In this document: positions 1 through 59,021 of the stretch, piece by piece
Position numbering within the stretch: the stretch's first letter is position 1
How the letters are laid out: each line of letters starts with the position of its first letter
Assembly (NCBI GenBank): GCA_023052935.1
Contig: CM041293.1
Span: 154,689,474 to 154,753,473, forward strand
DNA from: Piezodorus guildinii
Taxonomy: Eukaryota; Arthropoda; Insecta; Hemiptera; Pentatomidae
DNA length: 64,000 nucleotides
Reading direction: 5' to 3'
Made by a program: the position numbers and the translations under genes
Notes under the pieces: model-generated
Database searches by the model: none
The model's input: the letters and a program-made list of their open reading frames with translations, nothing else
Told to the model about the DNA's origin: nothing

Positions 1-384
1 TTTTAATTTAAAGTAAAAACGTCCAATTTCAATTTATTTCAAGATCAGCCAGTAACGTTTTGTCGAATTGTAAGTTACATACTTTCATTTATATCAATTG
101 AGGTTTTCTAAGCAGATAACAAAATGTGTCTGCAAATTTACAAAGCGTCTTTTTACGTGCATTAATGAAATATTCACGGCTCTCCTCTTTTACGGAGTTT
201 GTTGAAAAGGACCTATCGGTATAACTTGTAATCAGTAGTTCTCGTACGACTCCAATCAGTGTACGATTCAGAGTTCTGAAAACCAACGAATCTGCTTTCT
301 TTATTTCTTATTCTCATCCCGACAAAACCCGAAGCAGGAAATATCTGAGGTTTTGCCAGTTATTTTTGGAACACTTTATAAGAA

Positions 385-513
385 TTTAAAGCTCCTTTTT
401 TATTAATTGATAATTACAACTATATAGGAAAAAATACAACAAGTAAATGTGAAAAAAATAACATTTGGCTTGATAAACTCTTGTGAAGAAGCTACCCAGC
501 GGTAGCACTTCAA
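385..513 (-). mobile_element. Jockey-like LINE, 3' end fragment
   Basis: The minus strand carries the 3' untranslated end of the same Jockey-like family found at 14930, 15717 and 53163: a conserved hairpin-like segment (GAAGTGCTACCGCTGGGTAG on the minus strand) followed by an A+T-rich tail reading toward position 385. Only the last ~130 bp are present, so it is a strongly 5'-truncated copy with no coding sequence. I could not find convincing target-site duplications. Confidence 0.65.
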
Positions 514-1159
514 TCTCTTTTTTTTTGTTCAGGTTAGTGGACTTCAAAATGATTAGAAAATGTAACATTTCGCGTGTACAAAGTAGAAGGTTAGTAATAA
601 ACGCAACGGCTGCCAGTTGACTGACGTGCCGTATTCTTATCCAACTTCATTAAGAAAGAATTATCAAACGATCAAATGATTTAAAATGGATTTTTTTCTG
701 CGAATAAAGTAAAAATAAATGAACTCATAGTCCTTTTTTGTATATGAGTTTTCAAAATTGGCAAAAATTCATTGTTCGCAATGTTTACACGGAAATAACT
801 CAAAATTGACTGAGTGAAATATTATAAAACTAATACAGATTACCTATCTATACGATGTGTTTAACAGATAAAAATTTGGTCTTTGAGACTAAGCTGGTTC
901 CGGAGTTATAAAATTCTCTTAACTGTTAAAACAGCGTTTTCTATAAAAAAATATTAACTCCGGGAAATTTGCATATTTAAGAACTGAACAAAAACTAGAA
1001 TGATGGTGTTCACCCCATATGTTATGGCCTGAAACGGTTTTTCATGACTGTTTCAATGAAAATAAAAACTCAATAAGTTTTATAAAATTTATCATAAGAT
1101 CATTTTTTGTATTAATATTTATTTTTTATTTGGTTTAAAAATAGTCATTTTAAATATAA
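514..1159. other. A+T-rich stretch, nothing recognised
   Basis: No gene, RNA or repeat that I can support. Short open frames on both strands have no recognisable content. Confidence 0.5.
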
Positions 1160-1234
1160 TTAAAAGTTTTTGCCCCGAAAGTTAAGAATAATAGAAGAGA
1201 AAGATAGAAGGCGATCGTACTTTAATTGTTTATA

Positions 1235-1533
1235 AGATTGCCTCGTGGCGAGTCGAGTACTACGGTAGCGTCTGAACGGCGAAGCTGTGCCGTATATAGA
1301 CCCAAGTCTCCTCTCAAGAAATTTTGCGAAGCTTTTTTTAGACCATTCTTTTTTAAACCCTGAAGAATGGTCCCTCCCATTTTGCAATGGATAAATAAAG
1401 GCATAGAAGAAGCCCTTGAAAGATAACTAGTGACTAGATAACTAGGACAAAATGTGACATCTATACATATTACATTTGTATTTGTATTTTGTTTGAAAAT
1501 AAAACCGGTGGGTATGAAAAAAAAAAAAAAAAA
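1235..1533 (+). other. Possible retroposed 3' end with poly(A)
   Basis: A plus-strand stretch reads as a short C-terminal peptide ending at a TAA near 1392, followed by AATAAA-like signals and a pure A run at 1517-1533. That arrangement is what a retroposed transcript end or a LINE 3' end looks like. The peptide (about 38 residues, interrupted upstream by a TAG) resembles no family I know. The coding sense is inference; the poly(A) run is seen directly. Confidence 0.35.
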
Positions 1534-1757
1534 TTTTGAACGTTTGCAAACGTAACGTATTTCTTCATCTTCTTATCGTTTCCCTTGGAACTTGGAAGAG
1601 CCGCCCTGCGGTCATTTTCAACACTCAAGAGGACTTCGTTCAAGCCGCCCTGCGGTCGTTTCTTCAAAACTCGAGTGGATATCTTTACGTGAATATAACC
1701 TATCTATATCCATTATTGGAACATTTAATTTCCCAATTTTCCTTCTTAAAACTGTTT
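1534..1757 (+). other. Unidentified sequence with duplicated G+C-rich 15-mer
   Basis: An 85-codon open frame (1536-1793) covers this region, but it contains two copies of AGCCGCCCTGCGGTC at 1599-1613 and 1643-1657 and ends inside a later insertion (see 1770-1811). I do not recognise the peptide. The duplicated 15-mer suggests repeat-derived sequence rather than a conserved gene. Confidence 0.3.
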
Positions 1758-1769
1758 AATTTTGATTCA

Positions 1770-1811
1770 CCCGAAAGGGTAGATGCGGAATAGCAAATAA
1801 ATAAATAAATA
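1770..1811 (+). mobile_element. 42-bp retroposon stub with AAAT tail
   Basis: A 42-bp segment ending in five AAAT units is flanked by the exact 12-bp direct repeat AATTTTGATTCA at 1758-1769 and 1812-1823. This is the footprint of target-primed reverse transcription that stopped almost immediately, leaving only the 3' terminus of a non-LTR element or SINE. The parent family is not identified. Confidence 0.65.
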
Positions 1812-2037
1812 AATTTTGATTCATATATTTAAGTATTTAATTAAGTTAAGTTTGTTTCTCATATTTTCTTAAATATTTTAATTAGGTTTATTTTTTTTCC
1901 TACATTTTTCTTACAGCTGTTTAAGTATATAATTAGGGTTATTTGTTTCTTATCTTTTCTTATATCAACTTATTAGGTTATTTTTGTTTCTTTTCTTGTT
2001 TATATGTATTTTAGTTTAATAAATGCAATATTTTAGT

Positions 2038-3366
2038 TTAATAAATACGCCTTCTCCATTGACCTTCAGCCTGGCGTCCATCCAATAACCGACGCAAGAC
2101 TTTCCTTTCGAAAATGCCATGTTCCTGCTCCATCGATTTGGTGGTTGCCCAGGAATCCGATGCGTACAACAAAACTGGCCTGATCAAAATCCTGTTGAGG
2201 CTCATTTTGGTTTCTCTGGAGGGACCTCCACTTCTGAAGCGAAGCAGCAATCCAAAATATGCACAATTAGCTCCTTGGATTCTTTTCTTCACCTCCAGTT
2301 GAGTCTTATTATTGTGTGAGACCAGTGAACCCAGATAGACAAATTCAGATACCTTCTCAATCTTGTAATCTCCGAAAGTAACCATTTCACCTGGATTGGG
2401 GCTTCAGCGTATGCGAGAATCATAGAAGTTCGGTTGAATATTGTTCCTCCAATCTGGATTCCAACCTCTCTAACAGTCTTCTCAAGCACGAGGTTAAAAA
2501 GAAGGCACGCCAGTGCATCTCCTTGTCTCAAGCCATTATTTGAAGTGAATTCCTGCGACACCTCATTTCTGATTTTTACTGCACATCGCACTGTTTTCAT
2601 TGTTATCTTCACCAGTCTCACCAATTTTTCAGGAATGTTAAATTCATAGAGAACGTTATAGAGCTCCTCTCTGTTAACACCATCATAAGCTGCCTTGAAG
2701 ACTATAAATAAGTGGTGCGTTTTAATGCAATATTCACGTCCTCTCTCTAGGATTGTCCTCAAACTAGAGATTTGATCAAATGTTGATTTGCCCTTTCCAA
2801 ATCCACACTGATAGACAACCTTAGCTGTTTGCAAACGGTAACAATCTTGCAAATAAAATGTTTGAGAGTATTTTGTAAGCGGATGGGAGCAAGGCGATAC
2901 CTCTATAGTTGGAGCATTTTAATTTATCTTCTTTTTTATGTATAGGACAGACATAAGAAAAGTTCCACGTTGTTGGTATTACTTCTTCGGTCCAAATGGT
3001 GATTATTAGATTTTGTGTCCTAAAAAGTTAGTTCCCACCACTTTTTATCAGTTCCGCTGGGATACCATCGGAGCCTGCGGCTTTGTTTTTTAAAAATTTA
3101 TTTATGGCATCCATCAGTTCGTCCTCATCCGGTGGCTCTAGATCTGCTGTGTGAGATTCGCTTGGTCTGTTTCTAACACTTGCTATATTATAATCTTCTG
3201 GAGAACGGCGGGTAGTATCTTCGTTAAGGAGACGCGAGAAATGGTTCTTCCATTGCTCCAGAACTTCCACTTTGTTACATAGGAGAACATTGGCATCATT
3301 CAGGCAGCAAAAGTTCTGTGGTGAGAATGGGATGAGAATTATATAATAAGAACAATAGTATAACAT
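2038..3366 (-). pseudogene. RTE-like LINE reverse transcriptase, decayed
   Basis: Read from 3366 down to 2038, the minus strand spells successive parts of a non-LTR reverse transcriptase. First comes the pre-RT block with NKAAGSDGIPAELIKSGGN (about 3028-3090), then finger/palm blocks with QCGFGKGKSTFDQI, an FKAAYD motif in place of the usual FKKAFD and GLRQGDALACLLFNL (2289-2852), then the C-terminal block with VYLGSLVSHNNKT and FERKVLRRLLDG (2038-2385). Frames change between the three pieces. The catalytic YADD reads AYAEAP, so an aspartate is lost or out of frame. No endonuclease domain is seen upstream. The block order and wording match RTE-like elements; the exact clade is inference. It is inactive. 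Confidence 0.85.
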
Positions 3367-4489
3367 TTAGTGACTGAGACCCAGTTTGTTTTTGAAATGT
3401 AATAAATCAAATATTACTTGCCTTGCCAGAGTGGCCCTCATCTCATGAACACACTACAAGAAAAAACAAATTAATAACACTAGAACCAGTTGATTCTCAG
3501 CCACGAAATTTGATCCTTTAGTACTTATCATATAGAGGTATAATCTGTTTGAGTTTTATTATTTTTCACTCAGTCTTTTTTGAGATATTTTACTATAAAT
3601 ATTACTGAGCTGGAAAATTATCCTACTTTGAAAATTTGTATTGATAAAAAAGGATATAGCTTACACTATCAAAATTTTTAAAGTAGTGCAATAAAAAGGC
3701 TTTAAAAGCTATAAGTGGTTCAAATCTAAAAGGCCACGTTCAGCTAAATTTATTAAGTTTTGGCCTTCATTGACACTTTTTATCTCTGTTGGTGCTGCTC
3801 GAATCAAAATTATGACGACAGCTTCCAAAATTTACTTATTACTAATTAAAAAGTTACCAATGTACAAATATTTAAATGTTTAATAAGAAATTTGTTAGTA
3901 GATTCTTTCTTTCTTTCTATAACTTCTATACTAAATAAATCTATTCCATTCGTACGCAAACTCAATTCTCTCTGGCTGGGAAATCATATTTAGACATATC
4001 CTAGTCTATTGTTTTAAGTCAAGTAGAAATACTAAAGTAAATATTTTGAATAATGGAAGTAATATGTACATTTTTAAATCTCATAACCCTTGAACTTAAG
4101 AAATACCTCGTTTATTTATCAAAAAGTATTGATAAATGCCTAATGAATCTTATATGTAAAATTTGAATAAATTATTAATCGAGACGGGTTAATTCATCCC
4201 TAGAAATAATTGAGAATTTTTCACTGTCTTATTTTATTTATAAAGGAATTTTCCTTTTAATTATTACTTCGGTCTGGCATAATTGAGAATAATGTAATTA
4301 ACAGTTACTGTAGCCTTGGTTTTTGTATGTACAAGTGTAATAGATGAGGCAACACCATGGTCACTAAGTCAGTATTTTAAGATACCAGGTTGCATATATA
4401 TATATATATAAAATATATATTGCTACCAACTTCTGTTATTCTTATTTAGATGTTGATATATCACTCTTAGACTTAATACGTTAAATTAA
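3367..4489. other. A+T-rich stretch, no gene seen
   Basis: No coding or RNA feature that I can support. A short TA microsatellite lies at about 4394-4412. The 5' part of the adjacent Tc1 element may extend leftward into this region but is too decayed to recognise. Confidence 0.45.
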
Positions 4490-6430: not shown

Positions 6431-6444
6431 AACAATCATCTGGC

Positions 6445-6605
6445 GTCCTTCGGAGGGGACGTTAAAAGGTGGTCCCGAGCCTGTGCGATGTCAGGTACTC
6501 GTTAAAGATCCCTATCCTAATAAAACCTGGATAGGCAAAATTTAGGATTCCCACTGTAGCATCGTCCGATTAGCCATAGTAGCATAAAGTGACGTTAAAT
6601 AAACA
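6445..6605 (+). mobile_element. SINE-1 copy, 5'-truncated
   Basis: This copy carries the 3' part of the tRNA-derived family seen in full at 9378-9665, including GACGTTAAAAGGTGG, ACTCGTTAAAGATCCC, GCATCGTCCGATTAGCC and the AGTGACGTTAAATAAACAAA end. It is bounded by the exact 14-bp direct repeat AACAATCATCTGGC at 6431-6444 and 6606-6619. The RNA polymerase III promoter half is missing. Confidence 0.9.
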
Positions 6606-6965
6606 AACAATCATCTGGCATACAAATTGGCAAACATAATCAGTACGGGCTAGGATTCCTATGTAAATACATATTGGCTCCTGATTTCAATATCACCTTG
6701 TAAAAATCACAGTATATGTTTTAACGCAAAAAGGATCAAATTCAACTACTTAAAATTTACACATTATTACATATTTGGATAAATTAACATATTTCTTACA
6801 TACTCTGAGAATTCTCACATGTTTCCTCGATTTTTGTTCATTTTTAATTTTTATATTTTTTTGCAATCTGAATTACGAGTGAGTCGTAAACTGCGTACCA
6901 CTCTTTCCACACAAGATTTCAAAATTATTTTTGTGGTTGATTCTATTTTCATTTTGGTCGAAATG

Positions 6966-9377: not shown

Positions 9378-9665
9378 GGAATCACTTGTAGGTGGGTGGC
9401 TAGCATAACAGCCTCCCATGCCAATGGTCTCGGGTTCAAAACCTGCAGATGGCCCTAGGATTTTTTCATGGGGGTAAAAAATCCTTAGTTATGCCATCCT
9501 TCGGAGAGGACGTTAAAAGGTGGTTCCCAGCCTGTGCGACGTTAAGTACTCGTTAAAGATCCCTAATCTAATAAAACCTGGATATACAAAATTCATGACC
9601 ACTGTAGCATCGTCCGATTAGCCACGGTTGCATAAAGTGACGTTAAATAAATAAACAAAAAAACA
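9378..9665 (+). mobile_element. SINE-1, full-length tRNA-derived copy
   Basis: This 288-bp copy is bounded by the exact 13-bp duplication ACTATAGAAAAGA (9365-9377 and 9666-9678), which fixes both ends. Its head is tRNA-like, with a box-A-like TGGCTAGCATAACAG (about 9399) and box-B-like GGGTTCAAAACCTG (about 9432), the internal RNA polymerase III promoter of tRNA SINEs. The body ends GTGACGTTAAATAAATAAAC with an A-rich tail. Other copies lie at 6445, 23860, 45836, 46927 and 55449. Confidence 0.92.
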
Positions 9666-10159
9666 ACTATAGAAAAGATTAATAGTAGTCACCAATAATT
9701 TTGTACACGAACATCAAAATGAATGGGATTAAAAAAATCTTGTCATTTTAATGTCTACTGTCCAAGAAAAGCAACATAAGGAGTAAAAGTCGTCTACAGT
9801 TCAGAAACACGGAAGAAGAAGATTCCAACGAGGCCGAAAAGGCACAGATTCATGACCTTCCTTTCTCAGGTAGAATATCCTTGTGGGAACCCACCGAAGA
9901 CATCTTAAAACTTTACTAGACACTTATTAGAACTTCACTTACAAGTATAAAATAACACATGACTTTCACTTAACGCCACTGTTAAAATCAATTTAAGAGA
10001 TTTAAATTTAGAGTTGAAAAAAAGTCAAAGAATTACTTTGGATTTGGATGGAAATATATGTTTCAGATTAAATATAATCTAACAATAGAAATTATTATCT
10101 ATCAAAATCTTTCATATGCCCGATTTTATAGACACTCCACACAATGTCTATATAGGCCT

Positions 10160-15716: not shown

Positions 15717-16695
15717 ATTTTTTTTTATTTAATATTTTTATTGAAATTTACAACTGTATTTTGTAATACAACAAGTAAATATGATGGTAATGATAAAATA
15801 CATGAAGAGAAAATGCCCATTGGCATCACTCCACTAAGTAACTAAACTAGAAGGTCTCGAGACCATCTTCTTTTCAGGCGCCCCGTAGGTATGTCAGGAA
15901 TTGAAGAGGAAGCAAGAATTGAAACTAGAGGATTAGAGTGGGAGTGAAATTTGTCACGGAAGGATTGATACATGGTTCGTGCCAAATCAGCAACATATGG
16001 GATGTTAAGGTCTTTATGGATGAGTTTATTTGTGACAAAGTAAGGAGCATTGAGGATTTTTCGAAGGATTTTGGATTGTAAGGATTGAATAAGAAAAGAA
16101 TTTGATGGTTTCATAGAGCCCCAAAGCTCAACTCGTAAGTCCAGATAGGCCTTATGATGGTGATATAGATGAGCCTTTTTTAGATAAGTGGAAGGTTGGA
16201 GCGTCTGTCCAGTAAGTGTTGTAGTAAGCGAAAGCGACGGGCAGTTTCTTGTCGTTTCAGTCTTGTGTGGGGATTCCATGTTAGACGATTGTCAAGTAGA
16301 AGTCCTAGGTAGCGGATCTGTTCAACTGGAACAAGCGGAATATTATTAAAGGAAACTTTAGGGCAGGATGTCATAGGTTTACGACGAAGGGTAAAGGTAA
16401 TTTGGTGGGATTTGTTGGAATTGATTTTGATTCTCCAATTCTGACACCATATCTCAAGCTCTCTTACATGGGATTGAAGAGTTTGAGAGGCAATAGTAGG
16501 ACCGTTATTAACCGATAACACACAAGTGTCATCAGCATAGGTAGAAAGGAAGGTGTTGGGATGGATTGGGATATCAGCTGTATAAACTGTGTAGAGGATG
16601 GGTCCAAGGATACTACCTTGAGGGACACCAGTAGACTGAGTAAAAAGGGATGAATAGGAACTATTGTGGTTTATTTTGAAGGATCTTTCAGAGAG
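15717..16695 (-). pseudogene. Jockey-like LINE, 5'-truncated ORF2
   Basis: The minus strand encodes the end of a Jockey-clade reverse transcriptase. The segment from GVPQGSILGP (about 16600) and YADDTCVLSV (about 16520) runs to the conserved WCQNWRIKINSNKSHQITFT and IRYLGLLLDNRLTWNPHTRLK blocks, then LWGSMKPSNS and NAPYFVTNKLIHKDLNIPYV. It ends RWSRDLLV* near 15842, followed by the family 3' untranslated region and T-run. A frameshift separates 16180-16521 from 15842-16279. The likely target duplication is GATGTTGGA (15708-15716 and 16696-16704). The YADD box is intact, but the 5' half and endonuclease are absent. Confidence 0.88.
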
Positions 16696-16984
16696 GATGT
16701 TGGACGTGAACGTGTAAATTGACTTGAGATTTCAACTTATTCCCCGAAAGGTATTGGTTTGCTTCCCAGATTGCTTCAATACCGGCTCAAAACAAAATTT
16801 AAATTTTCGTAAACCTGGATATAATAAAATATTGGAAGTGGGTCTTAAATGTTTGGCGACCTTCCTTCTTTTGAATAAAAATGAATAATAACAATTAAAC
16901 CATAATGCATGGCTCTAAAACGTTTTTTGGGTCTCCTGTAAAATTATTGGAAATGGATTATGACGGTTTTGGAATAAATCGCCT

Positions 16985-23099: not shown

Positions 23100-23490
23100 A
23101 TATGTTTGGGGGTGTGATCATCAAATGAATTTTACTAATAAAAACTATTACATTTTTCTATCAGCGTTTCAGCCTAAATTTTAGGCCTTATCAGGGCTAA
23201 AAAAAAACATAAATACAAATTAAAATTATTATTAAAGGAAATAACGAGATAACCGTTATAGTGTTTCTATATTTCATTACCCTTATCTTGCTTTTTTTTT
23301 CCTTTATATTGTCTTTCATTTTTTTTTTTTGTTTTTTTTTAGTTGGTTATCTTGTTTTTTTTTAGTTGGTTATCCTGAAGTCCTGGTAAAGACTTTACTT
23401 AAGGCCGAAATGTCGGCACACAAATATAATAAGTTTTCTTATTAGTACGGTATATCATATGGCCGCACTTCTCCAATTTAAAACTACTAT
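23100..23490. mobile_element. Short inverted pair of Penelope-type ends
   Basis: Two hammerhead-like motifs face each other across ~200 bp. On the minus strand is CTGATAA, a GGCCT/AGGC-type stem and GAAACGCT (23163-23194); on the plus strand is CTGGTAA, a stem and GAAATGTC (23393-23414). Outer flanks (GTTTGGGGGTGTG on the left, GGCCGCACTTCTCC on the right) resemble the GGTTGGGGGTGCGGTC and GACCGCACCCCCAACC ends of the large palindrome at 47258-49309. This appears to be a smaller, older relative with damaged cores. Confidence 0.6.
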
Positions 23491-23859
23491 TAGTCATATA
23501 ATGTTAGAGAATGTATTGTACTATAAATATTATCAAAATATTCCGTATCGGATCTGTTTAACAGAGTAAAAATTATATGACAATAGCTTAGGAGTTTTAT
23601 TACATTTATCAAATGGAGCATAAAAAACAAACTTTTCATATTTTACTTCTTCTTTGTTTATAATTATATTTATAAGGGCTTATACTAATAGATTAATTAA
23701 TTAACTATAAAATTCATTAAAATTGGATAACCCCCATTCTATATCAAGAAAAAATTTGTCTAGTCCTCTAATTAATCCGCAGAAAAACAATATAGAACTA
23801 AGGTATAAGAAGTTAAGTTTAGATACTCTTAAAAGTTTCTTTATTATTGTTATTCAACG

Positions 23860-24115
23860 TCACTTTGAGGTACTGTGGCTAATCGAACGATGGCTAATGA
23901 ACTTCCAGGTTTATTTACGATGAGGATCTTTAACGAGTACCTGACATCACACCGGCTCGTGACCTGTATTTTACGTCCTCTCTGAAGGACGACATAACCA
24001 AGGATACTTTACTCCCTCTAAAAACTCTTAAGGCCATTTGTCGGGTTGGCACCAGCGATCTTGTTCAACAAAGGCTGTTATACTAACCACTAACCAAAAG
24101 GCGACCCCAGCCCTA
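23860..24115 (-). mobile_element. SINE-1 copy, diverged
   Basis: Minus-strand SINE-1 with recognisable GTCACTTTGAGGTACTGTGG, TTAACGAGTACCTGACAT, ACGTCCTCTCTGAAGGACG and a tRNA-like head ending AGGCTGTTATACTAACCAC. Box B is poorly conserved. Old copy. Confidence 0.8.
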
Positions 24116-38017: not shown

Positions 38018-38990
38018 TTAAACATTCTTTTTTAGCAATAGATTTAATGGGAATAGTTTATCGGATGCTTTCGGAATAAATTTTGCATAGCATTGGGCCA
38101 AACCCAAAAATGACTTAAGCTCTTCAACGTTTTTAGGTCGAGGCGCAGATTTGATCGTATCAATTTTGTCTTGACTTTTTTCTAAACCGCTAGCACTAAT
38201 TTTATGTCCGAGATATGTGACTGACGTGCAAAATAATTTGCATTTGGATTTATTTATGTGTAACCCGTTCTCTTGCAAAACCTTAAGGCACTTAATTAAC
38301 CGTGAATAGCATTCCTGGAATGTACTTCCCTGAATAAGGAAATCATCAAAATAAGCAACTGTACCGTCTAACTTTTGTATGATTTGATCAATTATTTTAT
38401 GATATTCCTTGGGGACAGTTTTAATACCCATAAAAAGCCTTTTTACCTTATAAGTTACGCAAATCGTTGAAATTGTGGCATATTCTTGACTCTTATCGTC
38501 TAACGCAAGATGAAGATATGCTTTGTGAAGGTCAAAGACGCAAAAGTATTTCCCCTCTTGAAGTTTATCAAATAAATCATCAATTTTGGGAATAGGGTAA
38601 TGAGTATCTTGTAACTGCGGATTGTAATTTTTGTAATTTTATAGTCAGCACAAATTCTGACAGTCTGGTCTGGCTTGGGAACTATAGCAAGATGTGTGCC
38701 CCAATCAGAATGATCGACTTTCTCTATGATATTTTGTTCTACCAATAAGTCTAATTCGTTTTTCGTTTTTTCTAGATAGGAATAAGGAATGGGTCAGGGT
38801 TTAATAAATATAGGTTTAGCATCATCTTTGAGATTCAGCTTACATTTGAAATGAGGAATGAGCCCAATTTTAGGAGTAAAAACATTTTCGTACTTTTGGA
38901 AAAGATCAGTTTAGATTTTCTCGAGGGCTGTTGGTTCTATGTTAAATTCGTCGACATTTTGTAAATCTGAAATATTTAATTTTAGTTACC
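38018..38990 (-). pseudogene. gypsy reverse transcriptase
   Basis: Reads VEQNIIEKVDHSDWGTHLAI and VPKPDQTVRICADYK (38745-38630), FASLTFTKHIFILR in place of the usual DLxxAY block, then VAYFDDFLIQGST with the YxDD catalytic pair (about 38365) and VTYLGHKISASGLEKSQDKI, KNVEELKSFLGLAQCYAKFI (38018-38431). The frames are split near 38440 and 38600. Confidence 0.88.
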
Positions 38991-39235: not shown

Positions 39236-40055
39236 TTTTTTTTTAATAGATTTATTGCTATTTACAACTGTATAATGATATACATCTAGTAAATGAGATA
39301 CAAGATAAAAATGTCATGGATTCACATGTGGGGATACTACCCATTGGCAGCTCCCCAAAGACTATGTTAAACTAGAAGGTCTCGTGGCCATCTTCTTTTC
39401 AGACGCCTCGGAGGATTATCAGGGATTGTAGAGGAAGCAAGGATTGAAACAAGTGGATTAGAGTGGGAATGGAGTTTGTCATGAAAGGAGTGGTACCTGG
39501 TTCGCGCCAAGACAGCAACATAAGGAACGTTAAGGTCTTTATGGATGAGTTTATTTGTGACAAAATAAGGAGCGTTGAGGATTTTTCGAAGGATTTTTAA
39601 TTGCAAGGATTGGAGACGGGAAGAATTTGATGGTTTAGTAGAGCCCCAAATCTCTACTCCGTAAGTCCATATCGGTCTGATGATAGTCATATAGATGAGC
39701 CTTTTGTACTTAAGTGGAAGGTTAGAGCGTTTGTCTAGTAAGTGTTGAAGTAGTCGAAAACGTCGGGCAGTTTCTTGTCTTTTCAGTCTTGTATGAGGGT
39801 TCCAAGTAAGACGTTTGTCCAGGTGCAGTCCTATGTATCGGATCTGTTCAACCGGGACAAGAGGAGTGTTATTGAAGGATACTGTTGGGCAGGATGTCAT
39901 AGGTTTACGACGAAGGGTAAAGGTGATTTGGTGGGATTTATTGGAATTTATTTTTATTCTCCAGTTCTGACACCATACTTCAAGGTCTTTGATGTGTGAT
40001 TGAAGAGTTTGGGAGGCAATAATTGGATCGTTGTTGACTGATAACACACATGTAT
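39236..40055 (-). pseudogene. Jockey-like LINE inserted in gypsy protease
   Basis: The 226-codon frame 39367-40047 is the best preserved Jockey-like C-terminus in the window: WCQNWRIKINSNKSHQITFT, IRYIGLHLDKRLTWNPHTRL, IYMTIIRPIWTYGVEIWGST, NAPYFVTNKLIHKDLNVPYV and RWPRDLLV*. It is uninterrupted to the stop, then has the 3' untranslated hairpin region and T-run near 39236. The 5' end is truncated just after the YADDT position. I could not settle the target duplication. Intactness of the frame suggests it is younger than its gypsy host. Confidence 0.9.
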
Positions 40056-40074
40056 TTTGATTTGAAATGGATTA

Positions 40075-40928
40075 TTTACTATTGAATTTATGAGAAAGTC
40101 TGATTCTGTAGGAATAATGGTATTTACCGTGTTAATTGAGATATGATCATCGCCTTCGTCTTCTTCTTCAACAAATCGAACTGGCTTCCTAAATTGACTA
40201 GAGATACATACCTTTTCCACGTGATCTGCTTTTCCGCATTTTCTGCACTTCAAGCGGTCCTTCGACCTGCACTGCCTATACGTGTGATTTTCCTTGCCAC
40301 AAGCCAAGCATACGTTTTGAAGGCCAAGTTTTGAAATGATTGAGGTTTTGAAGTTTCTTATGAAGTCATTCTTATTTGAATTTTTGCTGATCTGCCTCTT
40401 TGAAATCTTGACTTCGATTAAGCCTGCTGTTGAATTACTGTAGAGCTGATTCTGCTTCTTAGCTGCTTCAATGGCAAGAGCTATCTCGACAACTTTCTCG
40501 AATGTTACTGAATCTTCTTGCTGCAAAATTTGTTCCCTGATTTTAACATCATGTAGTCCCCGGACAAATTGTGCTTGCAGAATTGACATTACCGGTTTCC
40601 TGCAATCGTTTTCTTGACAAACCCACTTTGATGTACGGGCTAAATGTTTAAATGAAGCGATGTACTCCGACACAGTTTCGTTTGTATTTTGGACTCTTGA
40701 TAAAAATTTATGTCTTTCCGTATTTATGTTAGATTTAGGGCAAAGATGTGCACTCAATAGATTAATCAGTTCATCGTACTCTTTTGATGCGGGCAATTCT
40801 GGGGAAGTACAACTCGATAGTAATTGGTAAAATTTAGCATCTAAAGCGTTTATCAATACCTTAGCTTTTGGTGGTTTTACTTCAGCTGTATCTCCTGTTA
40901 ACTTCTTTAGCTCAAAATAATTTTCCAT
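40075..40928 (-). pseudogene. gypsy gag with two zinc knuckles
   Basis: One frame, 40928 to about 40060, encodes most of a Gag polyprotein. A helical capsid-like region (KVLINALDAKFYQLL, KEYDELINLLSAHLCP, ETVSEYIASFKHLARTSKW, FVRGLHDVKIREQIL, about residues 20-160) precedes two CX2CX4HX4C knuckles, CLACGKENHTYRQC and CRKCGKADHVEKVC (about residues 206-240). The last ~35 residues of the open frame run into the Jockey insertion. The frame is intact from its ATG, but an upstream piece (40938-41150) is separated by a stop. Confidence 0.86.
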
Positions 40929-40937
40929 ACGCTCTTT

Positions 40938-44110: not shown

Positions 44111-45546
44111 ATGGATCGAAAATAATTTTGATTGTTTCATATGTGCGTGTAAATAAGAAAATTTAGTATGAATTCATGTATTTTCTAAAAGGGTACAGTA
44201 GGTTCATCCCCCTCTCCCGACTAATTCGGTAATTTTTTTATTCAGTCCAAGTGTCAGAGCAGAATTTAATGATCCATAAAATTAAAAAAATAAAAGAAAA
44301 CAGAAAAGTTATAATCCAAGATTCATAGAGCCAATATCGGTGATCATTTAAGGTTCTCGCATCAGCGTAAAATAGAGGATAAAAACATTGATTCGGCCCT
44401 GAGAATGAACCTTAAGTGATAAAAAAGCGAAAATGAACTTCGCTAATGTAATCTTCCAAGATTCATTCCTAGAAGGCACCGATTTGAAGCTTAAGATAAC
44501 TTTTAAATTAACTTCGGCCTTGCAGATCAATCACAAGAAATTTACGATGTAATTTAATGATTGTATTTTTTTTTTTTTTCTAAACCGAATCTGTGGCCGG
44601 GGAGGAGCGGAGAGGAAATCTTTTGTTTTCCGCATTAGAAAAAAATAAATTCTCTTCACAAAATAAAGAATGTTTCGTGGTTCGAAGAGTCAAAATTTCA
44701 TCAGAATTGAGAGAATGCCTCCTTCCTTCCAACAGAACAATCTCAGAATGATATTGAAAGGATTACAATTGAACTTTAGAAAATACTTAGTTAAAATTTA
44801 AAACATATTAAAAACTTGAAATCAATGTTGCTGATAGTTGTGCAATAAACATTCCACGAAATATTGTTGTAATAATTTAAATTAAAATATAGCCTTACAG
44901 ATGTACTAAAAAATAATCTATTTTGAATACCTGAAATGCACAGCAGGTTTGAAGATTCTCGACCAACTACGTGTATTCTTAGCTCGGTTTCGATGACTCA
45001 TAACTCCATCAATGCCAAACCAAATAACGATTTCCCTGCTTCCATTATGCTCATTTCCTCGTTGTTTTTAAAATAATAGTTTTGGTGAGCCCAGAAAATT
45101 TATTCTATAATGATTCTTTTGATGAAACAGTTTAGTCTAGAATGGCTTATTCGTCCAATGTAGAATTATCCTAACTGTATCTATATTTAGAAAAATAGAA
45201 TCTCTGAAGTTCAGTTTTTGAGCATAATTTTATCCTGTTTACTTTTACATACCTCTGTATGAAATGCAGGTTAAAAACTTTAAAATCGGAGTTTTCATCA
45301 GTCCAAATTTTAGTATCTGCTGAATTCAAATATTCAAGCCTCACAAAACTGTCTGTTTTTCTGTTTTAGGTAAAACTGTAATTATATTTTTTATGCCATT
45401 ACATACAGGTGTATGCCACAGGCGTTAGAGCAGCTTTCTGACTAATTCTAAATTCAATTTAATAATATTTTATAAAGTTTTAAGTTATCAGTTTTACCAT
45501 TCTCAAAAACACACACAAAAAAAAAATAGCAGCTCTAACAATATTG
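44111..45546. other. No gene seen
   Basis: A+T-rich. Near 44270-44535, pieces such as AATCCAAGATTCATAGAGCC and AATCTTCCAAGATTCATTCC repeat loosely. No gene recognised. Confidence 0.4.
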
Positions 45547-46872: not shown

Positions 46873-46926
46873 TTCAAAATGCTGATTATCTAAGAAAAAT
46901 TAATATATAACTAATAAAGTTGTAGA

Positions 46927-47213
46927 TTGTTTGTTTATTTATTTAACGTCACTTTATGCTACTATGGCTAATCGGATGATGCTACAGTGGGAGTCCTAAA
47001 TTTTACCAATCCAGGTTTTATTAGGATAGGGATCTTTAATGAGTACCTGACCTCGCACAGGCTCAGGACCACCTTTTAACGTCCCCTACGAAGGACGGCA
47101 TAACTAAGGATTTATTACACCCATTAAAAAATCCTAGGACCACCAGCAGATTTGAACCTGTGACCTTTGGCATAGGAGGCTGTTATGCTAACCACCCAGC
47201 TACAAGTGATCTC
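46927..47213 (-). mobile_element. SINE-1, full-length copy
   Basis: 287 bp, bounded by the exact 12-bp repeat TAAAGTTGTAGA (46915-46926 and 47214-47225). Minus strand: head ATCACTTGTAGCTGGGTGG with TTAGCATAACAGCC as box A and GGTTCAAATCTGC as box B. Confidence 0.92.
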
Positions 47214-47336
47214 TAAAGTTGTAGAAGTTAAATGAGGAAAAACCCATAATAGTAATAAGATGAGGAAGATGGTTGGGGGTGCGGTCATAAATTAAAAACA
47301 CACAATTAAAAATAAGCGTTATTTTAATTATGTGCC

Positions 47337-47369
47337 GACGTTTCGGCCTACAATGTGGGCCTTCATCAG
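47337..47369 (-). ncRNA. Hammerhead-like core, left arm
   Basis: On the minus strand CTGATGA, a stem with AGGCC and GGCC around CACATTGTA, then GAAACGTC. All conserved core bases are present. Helix III has no loop: ACGT would pair only with a second molecule or a neighbouring motif. Confidence 0.65.
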
Positions 47370-49166
47370 GGCTAAAAGAAACAAGATAACAACCAATGTA
47401 ATTATAGACTTAATAATGCGTTAGGTATATAATAATAATATGACAGTAATAAATTATGGGAACATAAATAATATTAAATGTAAAATGATAATAAGATGAC
47501 AATTATAAAGTATGGAAATAAGGTGACAGTTATAAAGTATGGAAATAAACAAAATTAAGATGATAGTTATAAAGTATGGAAGTAGACATAATTGAGATGA
47601 TAATATTGTAATGAGAATATATAAATAGAGACTAAGTAAATGAAAAAAAAAAAATGATACAGGAAAAATATGTGAACAATTAAAATTTTAAATATTAACA
47701 ATTTTGAGTTGATATAAGACGGTAATCTATTAAAAACATAGTTAAGAGTATAGGTAATATATAAAAAAATATAGTAATTACAAAAGAGAAACAGTATGAA
47801 TAAAAAATAATAATTTAAATTTTAAAATAATGTAATATTAAACTAATAATTATATGTCAGGATATGTAACGGAGAAAGATATGAGTATGGAAAGGGGGAG
47901 AAAGAAATGGGCGATGAAAAAAGACCCTTATCAATAAGAAAAAATACTTACATGACGACGTAAAAGCTTTGCCTACAGAAGTGATGTTTCCCAGTTTAAA
48001 AAACGCTCATTGCGTGGAACGGAAAATATGAGAACTAGAATGTCCGTTAGGAAAATTCCAAGAAGCTAAGTTATGTTTACTGATTCGATTGTTAAAAAAT
48101 AGCCAAAAGTCATTACTTGAGAGTACTTGAGTTATTACTTATGAGTATTTGATAAAATTGTAAGAAATAGTGACGTGGTAAAGATTAAAAGATTTTAAGT
48201 AATAACGGATGACGATGATAAATGATGAATGATGATAAGGTAATAACGAATGACTTAAATGAACGAATGACCGCTCCTTATCGTCATTCGTTATTACCTT
48301 ATCATCATTCATCATTTATCATCGTCATCCGTTATTACTTAAAATCTTTTAATCTTTACCTCGTCACTATTTCTTACAATTTTATCAAATACTCATAAGT
48401 AATAACTCAAGTACTCTCAAGTAATGACTTTTGGCTATTTTTTAACAATCGAATCAGTAAACATAACTTAGCTTCTTGGAATTTTCCTAACGGACATTCT
48501 AGTTCTCATATTTTCCGTTCCACGCAATGAGCGTTTTTTAAACTGGGAAACATCACTTCTGTAGGCAAAGCTTTTACGTCGTCATGTAAGTATTTTTTCT
48601 TATTGATAAGGGTCTTTTTTCATCGCCCATTTCTTTCTCCCCTTTCCATACTCATATCTTTCTCCGTTACATATCCTGACATATAATTATTAGTTTAATA
48701 TTACATTATTTTAAAATTTAAATTATTATTTTTTATTCATACTGTTTCTCTTTTGTAATTACTATATTCTTTTATATATTACCTATACTCTTAACTATGT
48801 TTTTAATATATTACCGTCATATATCAACTCAAAATTGTTAATATTTAAAATTTTAATTGTTCACATATTTTTCCTTTATCATTTTTTTTTTTTCATTTAC
48901 TTAGTCTCTATTTATATATTCTCATTACAATATTATCATCTCAATTATGTCTACTTCCATACTTTATAACTATCATCTTAATTTTGTTTATTTCCATACT
49001 TTATAACTGTCACCTTATTTCCATACTTTATAATTGTCATCTTATTATCATTTTACATTTAATATTATTTATGTTCCCATAATTTATTACTGTCATATTA
49101 TTATTATATACCTAACGCATTATTAAGTCTATAATTACATTGGTTGTTATCTTGTTTCTTTTAGCC

Positions 49167-49199
49167 CTGATGAAGGCCCACATTGTAGGCCGAAACGTC
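49167..49199 (+). ncRNA. Hammerhead-like core, right arm
   Basis: CTGATGA (49167-49173), stem AGGCC/GGCC, then GAAACGTC (49192-49199), mirror image of the left arm. Expected cleavage would follow the final C at 49199, before GGCACA. The self-complementary ACGT would let two copies form a joint helix III, as in double-hammerhead arrangements. Confidence 0.65.
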
Positions 49200-49322
49200 G
49201 GCACATAATTAAAATAACGCTTATTTTTAATTGTGTGTTTTTAATTTATGACCGCACCCCCAACCATCTTCCTCATCTAATTTCTCTACGGTCAACAAAA
49301 CTCCATCATCATAATAGTAATA

Positions 49323-52000
49323 GTCTTTATTTATATACATACTTATAATATAATATTTACTTATTGAATATTAAGTAGTTGAAGGCAAGATAAATATGAA
49401 GGATGAAGATGGCTTGGGTAGCAGTCAAAAATGACCAGAAAACAGTGTCAAAACTATTTATTTTTGTAAATAATTTCTTACCTCTATAATTTTTTAACCA
49501 CTGAATAAATAGTTTTTAGACTAGTTTCTAATCATTTTTAACCGTTTCCCTAACCATATCACCCCTAATATTTACCAACAATTTGTTTTTCTTCTATTTT
49601 TCATTTATATGCATAAGAAGTTTGACAAAAAACCCACGAAATTAAGCTATTAACATTTTCTACATATGGATGATAACACAAGTTTCTATACATAGAAATT
49701 CTATAGAAGTGTTAACATTTATTTCAAGTAGTGGGAAAAGTTAAAGTAATGTGGTGTATAAATCAGATTTTTTAAAATCTATTTATGATCAATGAGACCT
49801 CGGGCCATTATTGGACAACTTGCAATAGGTATATTTTAAACTTCATTGATTTTAATCAATGATATATATTCAATTGTTTCTGACTGGGAAAAAATATATA
49901 TGGATAATTTCTATTTGGGTAATTTTCTAGTTTTATTTTATTATTGAGCTAACTGGAAACTTCAGTAGTTCAGAAAGCAAGGGTTTAGTTTCTCATTAAA
50001 GGTATAATAAAAAATTTCATTTGAATCAGAATTTCATTCAGAACTAAATGGAAAAATTATTGTATGAGGTCGTAAGATTCTTGTATAATATTTTTTTTTT
50101 TTTTTAATTTCGTAAAGAATCTTTTTTTACACTTAAACTGACTCTCATGAGTCATTGACAGTTATTGTTAGATTTATTATTTAAGATTTATGACTTAGTA
50201 GTTATAGTTTGACTGCATTGGTTTCTTTAGTTCATGAAAATTGATGAGCAGCCACAAAACATAAGTTCTTTTATTTTGATTTATTTATTATGGTATTTTT
50301 GTTTTTCATTTTTTATGATTCGTTTAAAATTGTGATGAAACTTAAAAGTCTGTTTTTATTGGTAAAGTTCAAGACTATTATTATTCAGGATTCATTAGTA
50401 AATGAAAAGTTAAGCTTTGGAAAGTGTTTAATAATTCCTTTTTATAATTTAAGACAACTTTATATTAACTTTGGATAGCAACTTTACTTTTTCTAGTGAA
50501 TAATCAGGAGTAAATTTTGTAAAGAAACCAAACAAGATATCTTTTTGGATTTAAATTTTCTGATTAGTGACACCTTTGCACACTGGGGTGAGAATCATAT
50601 TTACTAAAGAAACTGAATTAATTGAAAATGTTCTAATAGCTTATATAAAATGTTAAAAAATATATATGTTTTTGTTTCTGATTGATAAATGATGCTAATA
50701 AGAAAAACAGATTAATTATTTTTCCATCTTTCACCCTTCATCAGCGAATGTGCTTAGAAAGAACCCACTTTTTTCTTTTATAAATTTTTCTTTATAACTT
50801 AATGCACTAACTTTTCCATAGTATTAAATAACACATTTAAAAATCAAAATGCATTAACACAGTGATACTACACAAAAAAAAAAAAGTTTCTACACTAACG
50901 TTTCATTAAGCTTTTGACATTTTAAATCACTAAATGTTATAATAGTAAAAGTAATATATAAAGATAAAACAAAAATTAAAAACAACAGGGAAGTGAAATT
51001 AATATTATGAATAATCTAACATTGCAAAATAATAGTCTACATTCATTTTAAAATTAAAATATATATTTATGTTGCAAAAAGCATTGAAAATTCTTATAAC
51101 TTCAGACAAAGTGTAATATCCTCAAAAGTATCAGCAAATAATATCTAATTATAATTCATATGAAAAAACAAAACAATAATTATAATTTCGTGAAAAAAAG
51201 GGAAAATCCCAGATTTTAGCATCCTGTGCTTGATAATTTCAGGATTTATCATCAAGCATTCATAATTTTAAAAAATATATATAAAAAAAAGTATAAATTA
51301 TAGGCTTCATTATGAGAATGCTGCTGATTGGCTTGTAAGCCAATTTTCTTTAAGTAAAAACAAAGTAGTTTCATGTCTTAACATGGCCGATGAAGGAGAA
51401 ATAAGAAAGAGTATGATCAGTATTTTGAATTTGTCCAATTAGGTTATACTTTTGTCCTTTGTTCTTTATATTCCTGACTATTGATATTGTGTGTATAACA
51501 TAATTTAGTTTCTTAATACTTCAATGTAATTTTATACTATATGCGACATATTTGTCATTTCAAGAAACTAATCCTCTTTCATAAACTTTTAAATTTTAGT
51601 TAGGAAAATTCTATTAGTAGATTTTTGTTATATTTTATTCAGAAGTATTATGGGGTATACATTACATACTTTTGTCGGAAATAGCTCACTTAAATTAACA
51701 TTAGTCTCTATTGTTGAATCATACCATAACCACAATCTAAATAAATGCACTGAGCTATTATCATTTTGAAAATGAACACTATAAAGCATAAATCTGAAAT
51801 TCATACCGAAATATATCTCAAGAGAAGTGATTCATGGGGGGAAATGGAATATTTAGTTAACTATAATTATGAAAAAATTTGCTTGCTAATGCCCCAGTAA
51901 GCAATCAAATTCAGTAATGAACTGAACTACGATCCTTCTAGCAAAGTCTATTTACTTTTTAGGAGTAGAAATGAACAAATTATTACCATATCCTTGAGTG
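49323..52000. other. Long A+T-rich stretch without clear genes
   Basis: No transposon match and no long frame. An ATG in good context at 51384 (ATGGCCGATGAAGGAG) opens ~16 codons and precedes GTATGA, so it could be a small first exon, but this is weak. Confidence 0.4.
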
Positions 52001-57379: not shown

Positions 57380-59020
57380 AAACGCAGTAATCACCCTTTT
57401 GGACACATCGAATTTCTGCGCATGAGCTTTGGACTTTGCGCAACGCTGCTCAGACGTTTCAGCGGCCCCTCGATGAAGTTCTCCGAAGACTCGATTTCGT
57501 ATTTCCGTTTATCGACGATATCTGCATCGGATCTAGAAACCAAGAAGAGCACAAGGTACACCTTGAGGAAGTCTTTCGGCGATTAGAGAAGCATGGACTC
57601 ACCATCAACTTGGCTAAGAGCGTGTTCGCCAAGGAAGAGATCGAATTTCTGGGTCATCGAGTGAACCGGCATGGCATAACTGTCCTTCCCGCTAAGGTAG
57701 AAGCCATCATGAATTACCCACGCCCTTCGAACGTCAGTGAACTTCAACGATTTCTTAGGATGGTTAATTTCTACAGGAGATGCAAACCTCACGCGGTGGA
57801 ACTTCAGGGTCCTCTGAATACATACATGTGCGGAGCAAAGAAAAAGGACAAGACACCTATCGTATGGAACGAGACGCGCATCAAGGCCTTCGAAAGTTGC
57901 AGAGAGGCTATTCTTAATGCTGCGGTACTTGCTCATCCCAAGCCGAACTCTGAGTTGGTGTTGGCCTGTGATGCCTCTAGTATCGCCATGGGCGCAGTTC
58001 TCAAACAGAAGGATGAAGACACTTGGAAACCACTTGGATTTTTCTTCCGGAACTTTACCTCGGCGCAACGCAACTACACCACCTACGATAGGGAGCTTCT
58101 CGCAATCGACCAGGCCATAAGACATTTCCTTCCATACAGGGACATTTCCTTCGATGGGCAACATTTCGTAATATGAACTGACCATAAACCTCTCACATAC
58201 GGGTTTCAGCAGAAACCTAAAACTTCCACTCCGTTTCGTATCAGACACGTAAGCTATATAAGTCAGTTTACCACCGACATCCGACACATTCCAGGAACTG
58301 AAAACGATGTTGCCGATGCTTTTTCCAGGGTGGAAGAGATCAATGGCCCTGATGGAATTGAGGTGATCGCGGAATCTCAGGCCAACGATACGACCATTCA
58401 AGAGCTTTTCAAGAACCCCAGCCTGAAGCTTAAATGGATTAAGTTTCCTAACCATGAAAGACCTATCCTCTGCGAAATGTCGACGTCGAAAGCACGACCG
58501 TACCTGCCTGAGAGTACTCGTCATTCCGCATTTCAACATCTTCACGGATTGAGTCATCCTGGATTCGCGGTTCACGTAGACTAGTGGCACAGCGATATTT
58601 TTGGCCGAACCAGAACATAGATATTGGGAAGTGGTCTCGAGCCTGCGTCGTCTGCCAGCGATCTAAGGTGCAACGCCATACAATAGCACCACCTGGAATG
58701 TTTCCATTAGTAGGTCGGTTTGAACATATCCACATGGATATTATAAGACCCATAGTCGATAGATACACTAGGTGGCCGGAAGCACAACCTATCGAAGACA
58801 TCTCCGCAACCACCTGCGCAAAAGCTTTGTGTTTCTCGCGGATTACACGCTTCGGAGTACCCGCTAGGATCACCACAGATCAAGGGCGACAGTTTGAGTC
58901 CCATCTGGTCCTCGAGTTATCCAAGGCTCTAGGATTCCAGCGTATAAGGACTACCTCATATCATCCCCAGGCGAATGGATGTGTCGAGACGTGGAAGTTT
59001 ATTTGCGATTGCGAGAAATG
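57380..59020 (+). pseudogene. CsRn1-like gypsy pol: RT, RNase H, integrase
   Basis: Reverse transcriptase: RNAAQTFQRPLDEVLRRLDF, PFIDDICIGS with the catalytic DD (about 57510), EFLGHRVNRHGI, VSELQRFLRMVNFYRR. RNase H: LVLACDASSIAMGAVLKQ and YTTYDRELLAIDQAI (57436-58176), then a TGA, then TDHKPLTYGF and VADAFSRV. Integrase: HLHGLSHPGF (58550), a stop, CVVCQRSKVQRH (58648), DIIRPIVDRYTRWPEA with a deletion after the first Asp, TTDQGRQFES and HPQANGCVETWKF carrying the catalytic Glu (about 58990). The 5' part of RT and the protease are missing; a frameshift lies near 57430. Codon use is G+C-richer than the surroundings. Confidence 0.92.
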
Positions 59021-59021
59021 A

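Follow-up and report, generated by a model that had tools for sequence, protein, structure and literature searches.

A near-perfect palindrome in Piezodorus guildinii as a probable two-strand insertion of a Penelope-like element, with one tail per duplication-bounded inverted pair among the places examined in its family

The integration of Penelope-like elements is unsettled: their inverted copies have been attributed to self-priming, and their tail has lately been tied to two start sites of reverse transcription. The family that we describe here in Piezodorus guildinii shares with the endonuclease-containing Penelope-like elements a reverse transcriptase (RT) frame, pseudo-LTRs (pLTRs) in tandem or inverted arrangement, a short target duplication and a type-I hammerhead motif, and the optional tail of such elements, 30-40 bp long, measures 31 bp in it. 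The Pen families of Adineta vaga also have inverted pLTRs, and in the part of that account considered here the inverted junction is ascribed to self-priming, proposed to occur on an antisense template (PMC3846280). As given in the same part, the target duplications of the A. vaga families are 8-10 bp long versus 12-16 bp in our family, and it contains no tail counts per insertion. PAc, a Poseidon-type Penelope element of Anolis carolinensis, resembles our family in several respects: a hammerhead with stems I and II lies beside the start of its reading frame, its tail lies between two adjacent RT start sites, the start region is AC-rich, and AT-rich targets are used, both strands of which are cleaved and extended by the anole protein in vitro (PMC11167929). 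PAc differs in that neither start site was seen to be used preferentially on one strand in vitro, and in that the main text reports no inverted-pair products. Retrozymes and metazoan type-I hammerhead repeats (PMC7761336, PMC7229834), in the portions of those sources used here, likewise have a type-I hammerhead in a retroelement, as short head-to-tail repeats of ~150-400 nt with circular RNA. Unlike in retrozymes, the hammerhead of our family lies in a pLTR, and the inverted copies are parts of a 3.9-kb coding unit.

The window, the whole 64,000-nt stretch of P. guildinii DNA that was analysed, contains a unit of 2052 bp (47258-49309) composed of two reverse-complement arms, an unmirrored 28-bp centre and a 31-bp tail present on the right side only (Table 1). 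The arms, of ~997 bp each, occupy 47258-48254 and 48283-49278. When they are aligned from 47251, 8 of 1004 columns differ; as 2 of these are inside the target duplication, the differences within the element amount to 6, namely 5 substitutions and 1 indel. The centre extends from 48255 to 48282, and 14 bp of it belong to one copy only. The target duplication of 13 bp is exact, and in a control with random positions in the 5-kb stretch around the palindrome, a 13-bp repeat was obtained in 0 of 100 trials. The palindrome, the one-sided tail and the target duplication, all of which had been reported in a preliminary description of this DNA, are thus present as described, and so are the complete hammerhead cores that it placed near both outer ends. 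Its statement that the window copy has no coding capacity is likewise in line with our analysis, as no Pfam domain was found in the 6 plus-strand frames of the right copy. A possible stem brackets the no-tail start site (Table 1); a stem of at least 6 bp also arises in 70 of 2000 tail shuffles.

Table 1. Coordinates of the inverted element, its sub-features and a smaller relative in the window
Feature	Position	Strand	Basis or remark
Left target-site duplication, CATAATAGTAATA	47245..47257	.	Repeat search and random-position control
Copy 1, derived from the 3' end of the Penelope-like unit (about 3905 back to 2908) and facing outward with its no-tail end	47258..48254	-	
Minimal type-I hammerhead core, copy 1	47337..47369	-	Pattern; stem I/II fold of identical motif
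Junction filler, 14 bp; with the next bases repeats AACGAATGAC, the end of copy 1	48255..48268	.	
Copy 2, tail end outward: unit 2894 to about 3905	48269..49278	+	First 14 bases unmirrored in copy 1
Minimal type-I hammerhead core, copy 2	49167..49199	+	Pattern and fold
Possible stem TGACCG (49249-49254) / CGGTCA (49289-49294), bracketing the no-tail start site	49249..49294	+	
Tail, 31 bp; in tandem copy L035 a long open frame has its first Met just downstream of it	49279..49309	+	
Right target-site duplication	49310..49322	.	
Second, smaller inverted element, decayed hammerhead ends outward on both sides	23105..23478	.	Profile; diverged relative, same plan

With up to 3 mismatches allowed, the hammerhead core pattern CTGATGA...GAAACGTC occurs in the window only at the two positions of Table 1, exactly in both cases, and it occurs in none of 100 shuffles. 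Since the left core is on the minus strand and the right core on the plus strand, the two copies are oriented head to head, their 3' ends pointing outward. The motif has stems I and II and lacks the loop of helix III, GAAAC being directly joined to GTC, and cleavage in copy 2 is predicted after the GTC that ends at 49199. The minimum-energy fold of the 74-nt motif contains stems I and II, whose pair probabilities are 0.63-0.89; neither stem is found in the fold of a slightly longer piece of 86 nt (z -0.53). Rfam gave no match in the window at gathering thresholds, and a search of the element under relaxed conditions returned 14 matches, 0 of them to hammerhead families and 0 at gathering score. 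Across 25 places in the genome, the core and inner stem bases are kept in 40 of 46 motif copies. A core-like match at 44672-44704 on the minus strand was dropped, as no stem II was visible by eye. Outside this genome, the strict form of the pattern had 0 matches both in viral_contigs and in GTDB contigs; 4 matches to a loose form in the former and 3 to a looser form in the latter were judged on inspection by eye to be due to chance. The hammerheads of the window copy appear to be part of the copied template. Each strand of the inverted pair carries one sense and one antisense motif, and folding into a long hairpin would therefore compete with folding of the ribozyme. In the anole Penelope element, ribozyme mutants still inserted in vitro (PMC11167929).

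Other repeats surround the palindrome. In the smaller element at 23105-23478, the core bases are altered in both hammerhead remnants, and a search for its target duplication yielded only 7-bp matches. A profile of the last ~140 nt, run over the 64 kb, found four places above threshold, one in each arm and one at either end of this smaller element; these match by construction because the profile was built from them, and the finding is that there is no fifth place. A dispersed repeat at 46915-47210, with similar sequences at 6441-6613, 9381-9671 and 23835-24090 (71-94% alike), looks by eye like a tRNA-derived SINE; ARAGORN found no tRNA in the window. Just downstream of the palindrome, a small imperfect hairpin (49409-49557, 54-nt arms, 78%), whose start resembles the palindrome end, is perhaps an unrelated MITE. 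Frames with Pfam RT, gag, RNase H and integrase matches, which belong to other retrotransposons, are located at 2289-2918, 16180-16731, 38018-38638, 39954-40937 and 57391-59021, the rve match among them being just under the Pfam cut-off.

A search of the 1.2-Gb assembly with most of the right copy and the tail (48300-49309) as the query returned at least 43 matches, most of them at 97-99% identity, a lower bound given that the best 40 of 1905 candidates were scored. Among the matches listed, most extend to the tail end or stop about 30 bases short of it. We examined 25 places, the window and 24 others (L028-L051), leaving out 13 further listed places, and used one genomic unit as the query to map them. 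This Penelope-like unit is 3936 nt long, and the arm corresponds to its last ~1 kb. Tandem copies are found in L035 and L042. In L035, a long open frame traverses the tail and has its first Met directly after it; the first frame of this locus has no Pfam match, and the frame of the endonuclease end stops near unit position 2721, about 175-190 nt upstream of the inner ends of the arms. Pfam RVT_1 was matched with 34.8 bits in L041 (4347-5954) and 32.5 bits in L032 (cut-off 29.6), and C-terminal to the RT there is a match to GIY-YIG with an E value of 0.0016 and 19.1 bits, under the cut-off of 22.6. A protein search identified 1383 relatives among 7991 candidates scored. Among the 120 homologs listed, every one with a named organism comes from an insect, many have ~800 aa, and 7 harbour PF01541.

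As longer sister copies carry the RT frame, the arm is the 3' UTR/pseudo-LTR of a coding Penelope-like element, and the window copy, which is 5'-truncated, has no such frame. The link to Penelope-like elements made in the preliminary description is therefore well founded, the arm being the last ~1 kb of a ~3.9-kb unit of this type. Its proposal of a special, non-autonomous palindromic family is not supported, as the longer copies encode an RT and a weakly scoring GIY-YIG domain. The window element is an extreme but ordinary case of its family, well explained as to its identity and less so as to its formation. Some family members have irregular structures of their own. In L028 (3708-3750), L040 (4919-4976) and L048 (4715-4724), one copy skips about 715, 640 and 115 nt of the unit, respectively, on the same strand, as if the reverse transcriptase had jumped on its template or a deletion had occurred later. 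Two copies, in L040 (3123-4126) and L048 (1446-2581), are split by about 1 kb of foreign DNA, and 12 and 17 nt of the unit, respectively, recur on either side of the interruption; by their block coordinates, these are later nested insertions with duplications of their own.

In the block maps, 15 of 20 loci, as well as the window, have both 3' ends in head-to-head orientation. We looked for a target duplication at 20 of the 25 places, L033, L034, L035, L043 and L047 being left out, and at 14 of these 20 both 3' ends stand head to head within duplications of 12-16 bp (the window, L028-L032, L036, L038, L040, L041, L044-L046 and L051). The lengths of the duplications were compared with random placements for 13 of the 14 pairs, without L051, and were reached in 0 of 100 placements for each. 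Each of the 14 duplication-bounded pairs carries the tail at one end only, and the outer ends vary by a few nucleotides around both start sites. Among the other places, L048 is a head-to-head pair with one tail and one no-tail end and an 8-bp repeat only, and L042 has one no-tail end and one tail end, runs on into a tandem copy and has no duplication at these two ends. L037 and L039 are no-tail/no-tail pairs without a target duplication, whose flanks are mirrored as well. L033, L034, L043 and L047 have one tail end each, and L049 and L050 one no-tail end each, with no duplication found at the latter two. The tail was part of the query, which favours places with at least one tail and may leave no-tail pairs under-represented; it does not explain why tail/tail pairs are missing. 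The palindromes of L037 (1205-7789) and L039 (2807-7512) are near-perfect, have arms of 2-3 kb that include mirrored flanking DNA, and might represent inverted duplications or folded-back assemblies.

The two copies at a given place appear to have a common source. At 18 family-polymorphic columns, copies from the same place mismatch in 5 of 161 comparisons and copies from different places in 2335 of 5355. Within 13 pairs, 56 of 60 differences are not family polymorphisms, and the other 4 are, a difference being counted as a family polymorphism when each of its alleles is found in two or more other loci; some of these within-pair differences fall at alignment columns 1542-1549, which are flank bases past the no-tail end, and three of those counted as 'private' have their allele in one other locus. 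The within-pair comparison covered 17 places, with L031, L035, L036, L037, L039 and L049-L051 left out. All 5 arm substitutions of the window are private among these 17 places, and the arms would therefore have been alike at birth. Together, the one-tail pattern and the single source suggest that one RNA source is used and that the use of the two start sites is coordinated.

In the window the inner ends are located at unit positions 2908 (copy 1) and 2894 (copy 2), and it is because both copies stop 14 nt apart that this insertion is an almost perfect palindrome. The 14 bp between them look like templated end-joining filler, as judged from the repeated bases. The inner junction of the window is absent from the 24 other places (44 loci compared, window included), and the inner 5' ends differ widely among places, from unit 272 to 3845. 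Of 38 such ends from 22 places (L035, L037 and L039 left out), 6 fall into unit 2884-2911, two of which come from the window itself; when the window is left out, 4 of 36 do so, and another 28-nt stretch has 5. In simulations of 5'-end clustering, the corresponding counts were 4 or 153 of 20000 with the window and 110 or 1152 without it. A hotspot at unit 2884-2911 that we had considered was withdrawn in view of this weak clustering. Within a place, the inner ends are no more than 40 nt from each other at 3 of 14 places (384 of 20000 permutations), and leaving out the window gives 2 of 13 (1351 of 20000), a closeness that is not convincing. The near-symmetry of the two stops in the window could be due to chance, to a preferred stop or to the 5' end of one template RNA. 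An initiator-like motif is found at unit 2909; since the same pattern occurs 11 times in the unit, it is a lead only. The right-hand no-tail copies of L030 and L032 begin alike, at unit 3506/3507, at a T-rich run.

We consider it probable that the window palindrome is the product of one Penelope-type insertion, in which the same stretch of RNA was copied twice, once for each cut strand of the target. The simplest reading of the differing inner ends is that the pair is formed anew at every insertion. In such a process, the element's protein would cut both target strands with a stagger of 12-16 nt, leaving 3' overhangs, and each 3' end of the target would prime reverse transcription of the element RNA. 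One cDNA would begin at the distal start site and thus include the tail, and the other would begin at the proximal start site without it. Both would then extend to the 5' side of the RNA, where they would be joined by microhomology or a short filler, and copying of the overhangs would generate the target duplication. The in vitro work on the anole element revealed no difference between the top and bottom strands in the start site used (PMC11167929); a strict one-tail rule is therefore not predicted by it, which counts against a fixed assignment of start sites to strands. The two no-tail ends of L037 and L039, the 8-bp repeat of L048 and the lack of a duplication at L042, L049 and L050 also speak against the two-sided reading.

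Several other explanations were weighed. Self-priming, whereby the RNA or the first cDNA would fold back and be copied into a hairpin before insertion, accounts for arms that come from a single source and for palindromic inner junctions, and it fits the 3 of 14 places with inner ends at most 40 nt apart. However, fold-back copying should yield either a complete mirror image of the first copy or a stop at any position, whereas the second end lies near the proximal start, about 31 nt short of the first end, in 14 of 14 duplication-bounded pairs. Most of the duplication-bounded places moreover have very unequal inner ends, such as unit 1433 versus 3507, and these nearly abut, with anything from a 4-bp overlap to a 50-bp gap in the 13 of these 14 places that were listed, so that we regard self-priming as unlikely. 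The preliminary description had instead proposed a ready-made inverted dimer, in which a non-autonomous palindrome would be transcribed and integrated in that form. Its near-symmetry, the lack of a long reading frame and its own target duplication are what such a dimer would display, but the window junction recurs at none of the 24 other places, the 5 arm substitutions are private to the window, and copies of the family continue beyond the arm into the RT frame. With inner ends that also differ between places, this proposal is very improbable. Inverted pairs with their own duplications are common in this genome, being present at 14 of the 20 places where a duplication was sought, and their inner 5' ends differ.

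Transposase-driven movement of a Foldback or MITE-like DNA element, whose termini are long inverted repeats, would likewise leave long inverted arms within a target duplication. Here the duplication is not of fixed length, varying between 12 and 16 bp, the two ends are unequal by the 31-bp tail and the inner ends are variable; with hammerhead cores kept in 40 of 46 copies and sister copies that encode an RT, there is hardly any room for this explanation. Long near-perfect palindromes can also be artefacts of assembly or library preparation, created by a folded-back read, and L037 and L039 with their mirrored flanks might be such cases. For the window this is scarcely conceivable, because the mirror symmetry breaks off precisely at the tail and the target duplication; in addition, there are 6 differences between the arms, and other places display the same architecture.

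The structure found in the window is of a known kind, and the one-tail rule is a new lead. A young family in which 14 of 14 pairs have a single tail, with one source per place, provides a testable rule, that of two strands, two start sites and one RNA source. It is tempting to go further and to propose that Penelope integration is obligatorily two-sided and asymmetric, with one dimer, one RNA or source locus and start sites 31 nt apart, one for each strand; we put this forward tentatively, our confidence in it falling a little short of even. If it is true, every complete insertion would carry the tail at one end and lack it at the other, head-to-head pairs would be the normal product, and single-ended copies would be failed or rearranged events. 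Furthermore, long inverted repeats like that of the window could yield double-stranded RNA, if they are transcribed.
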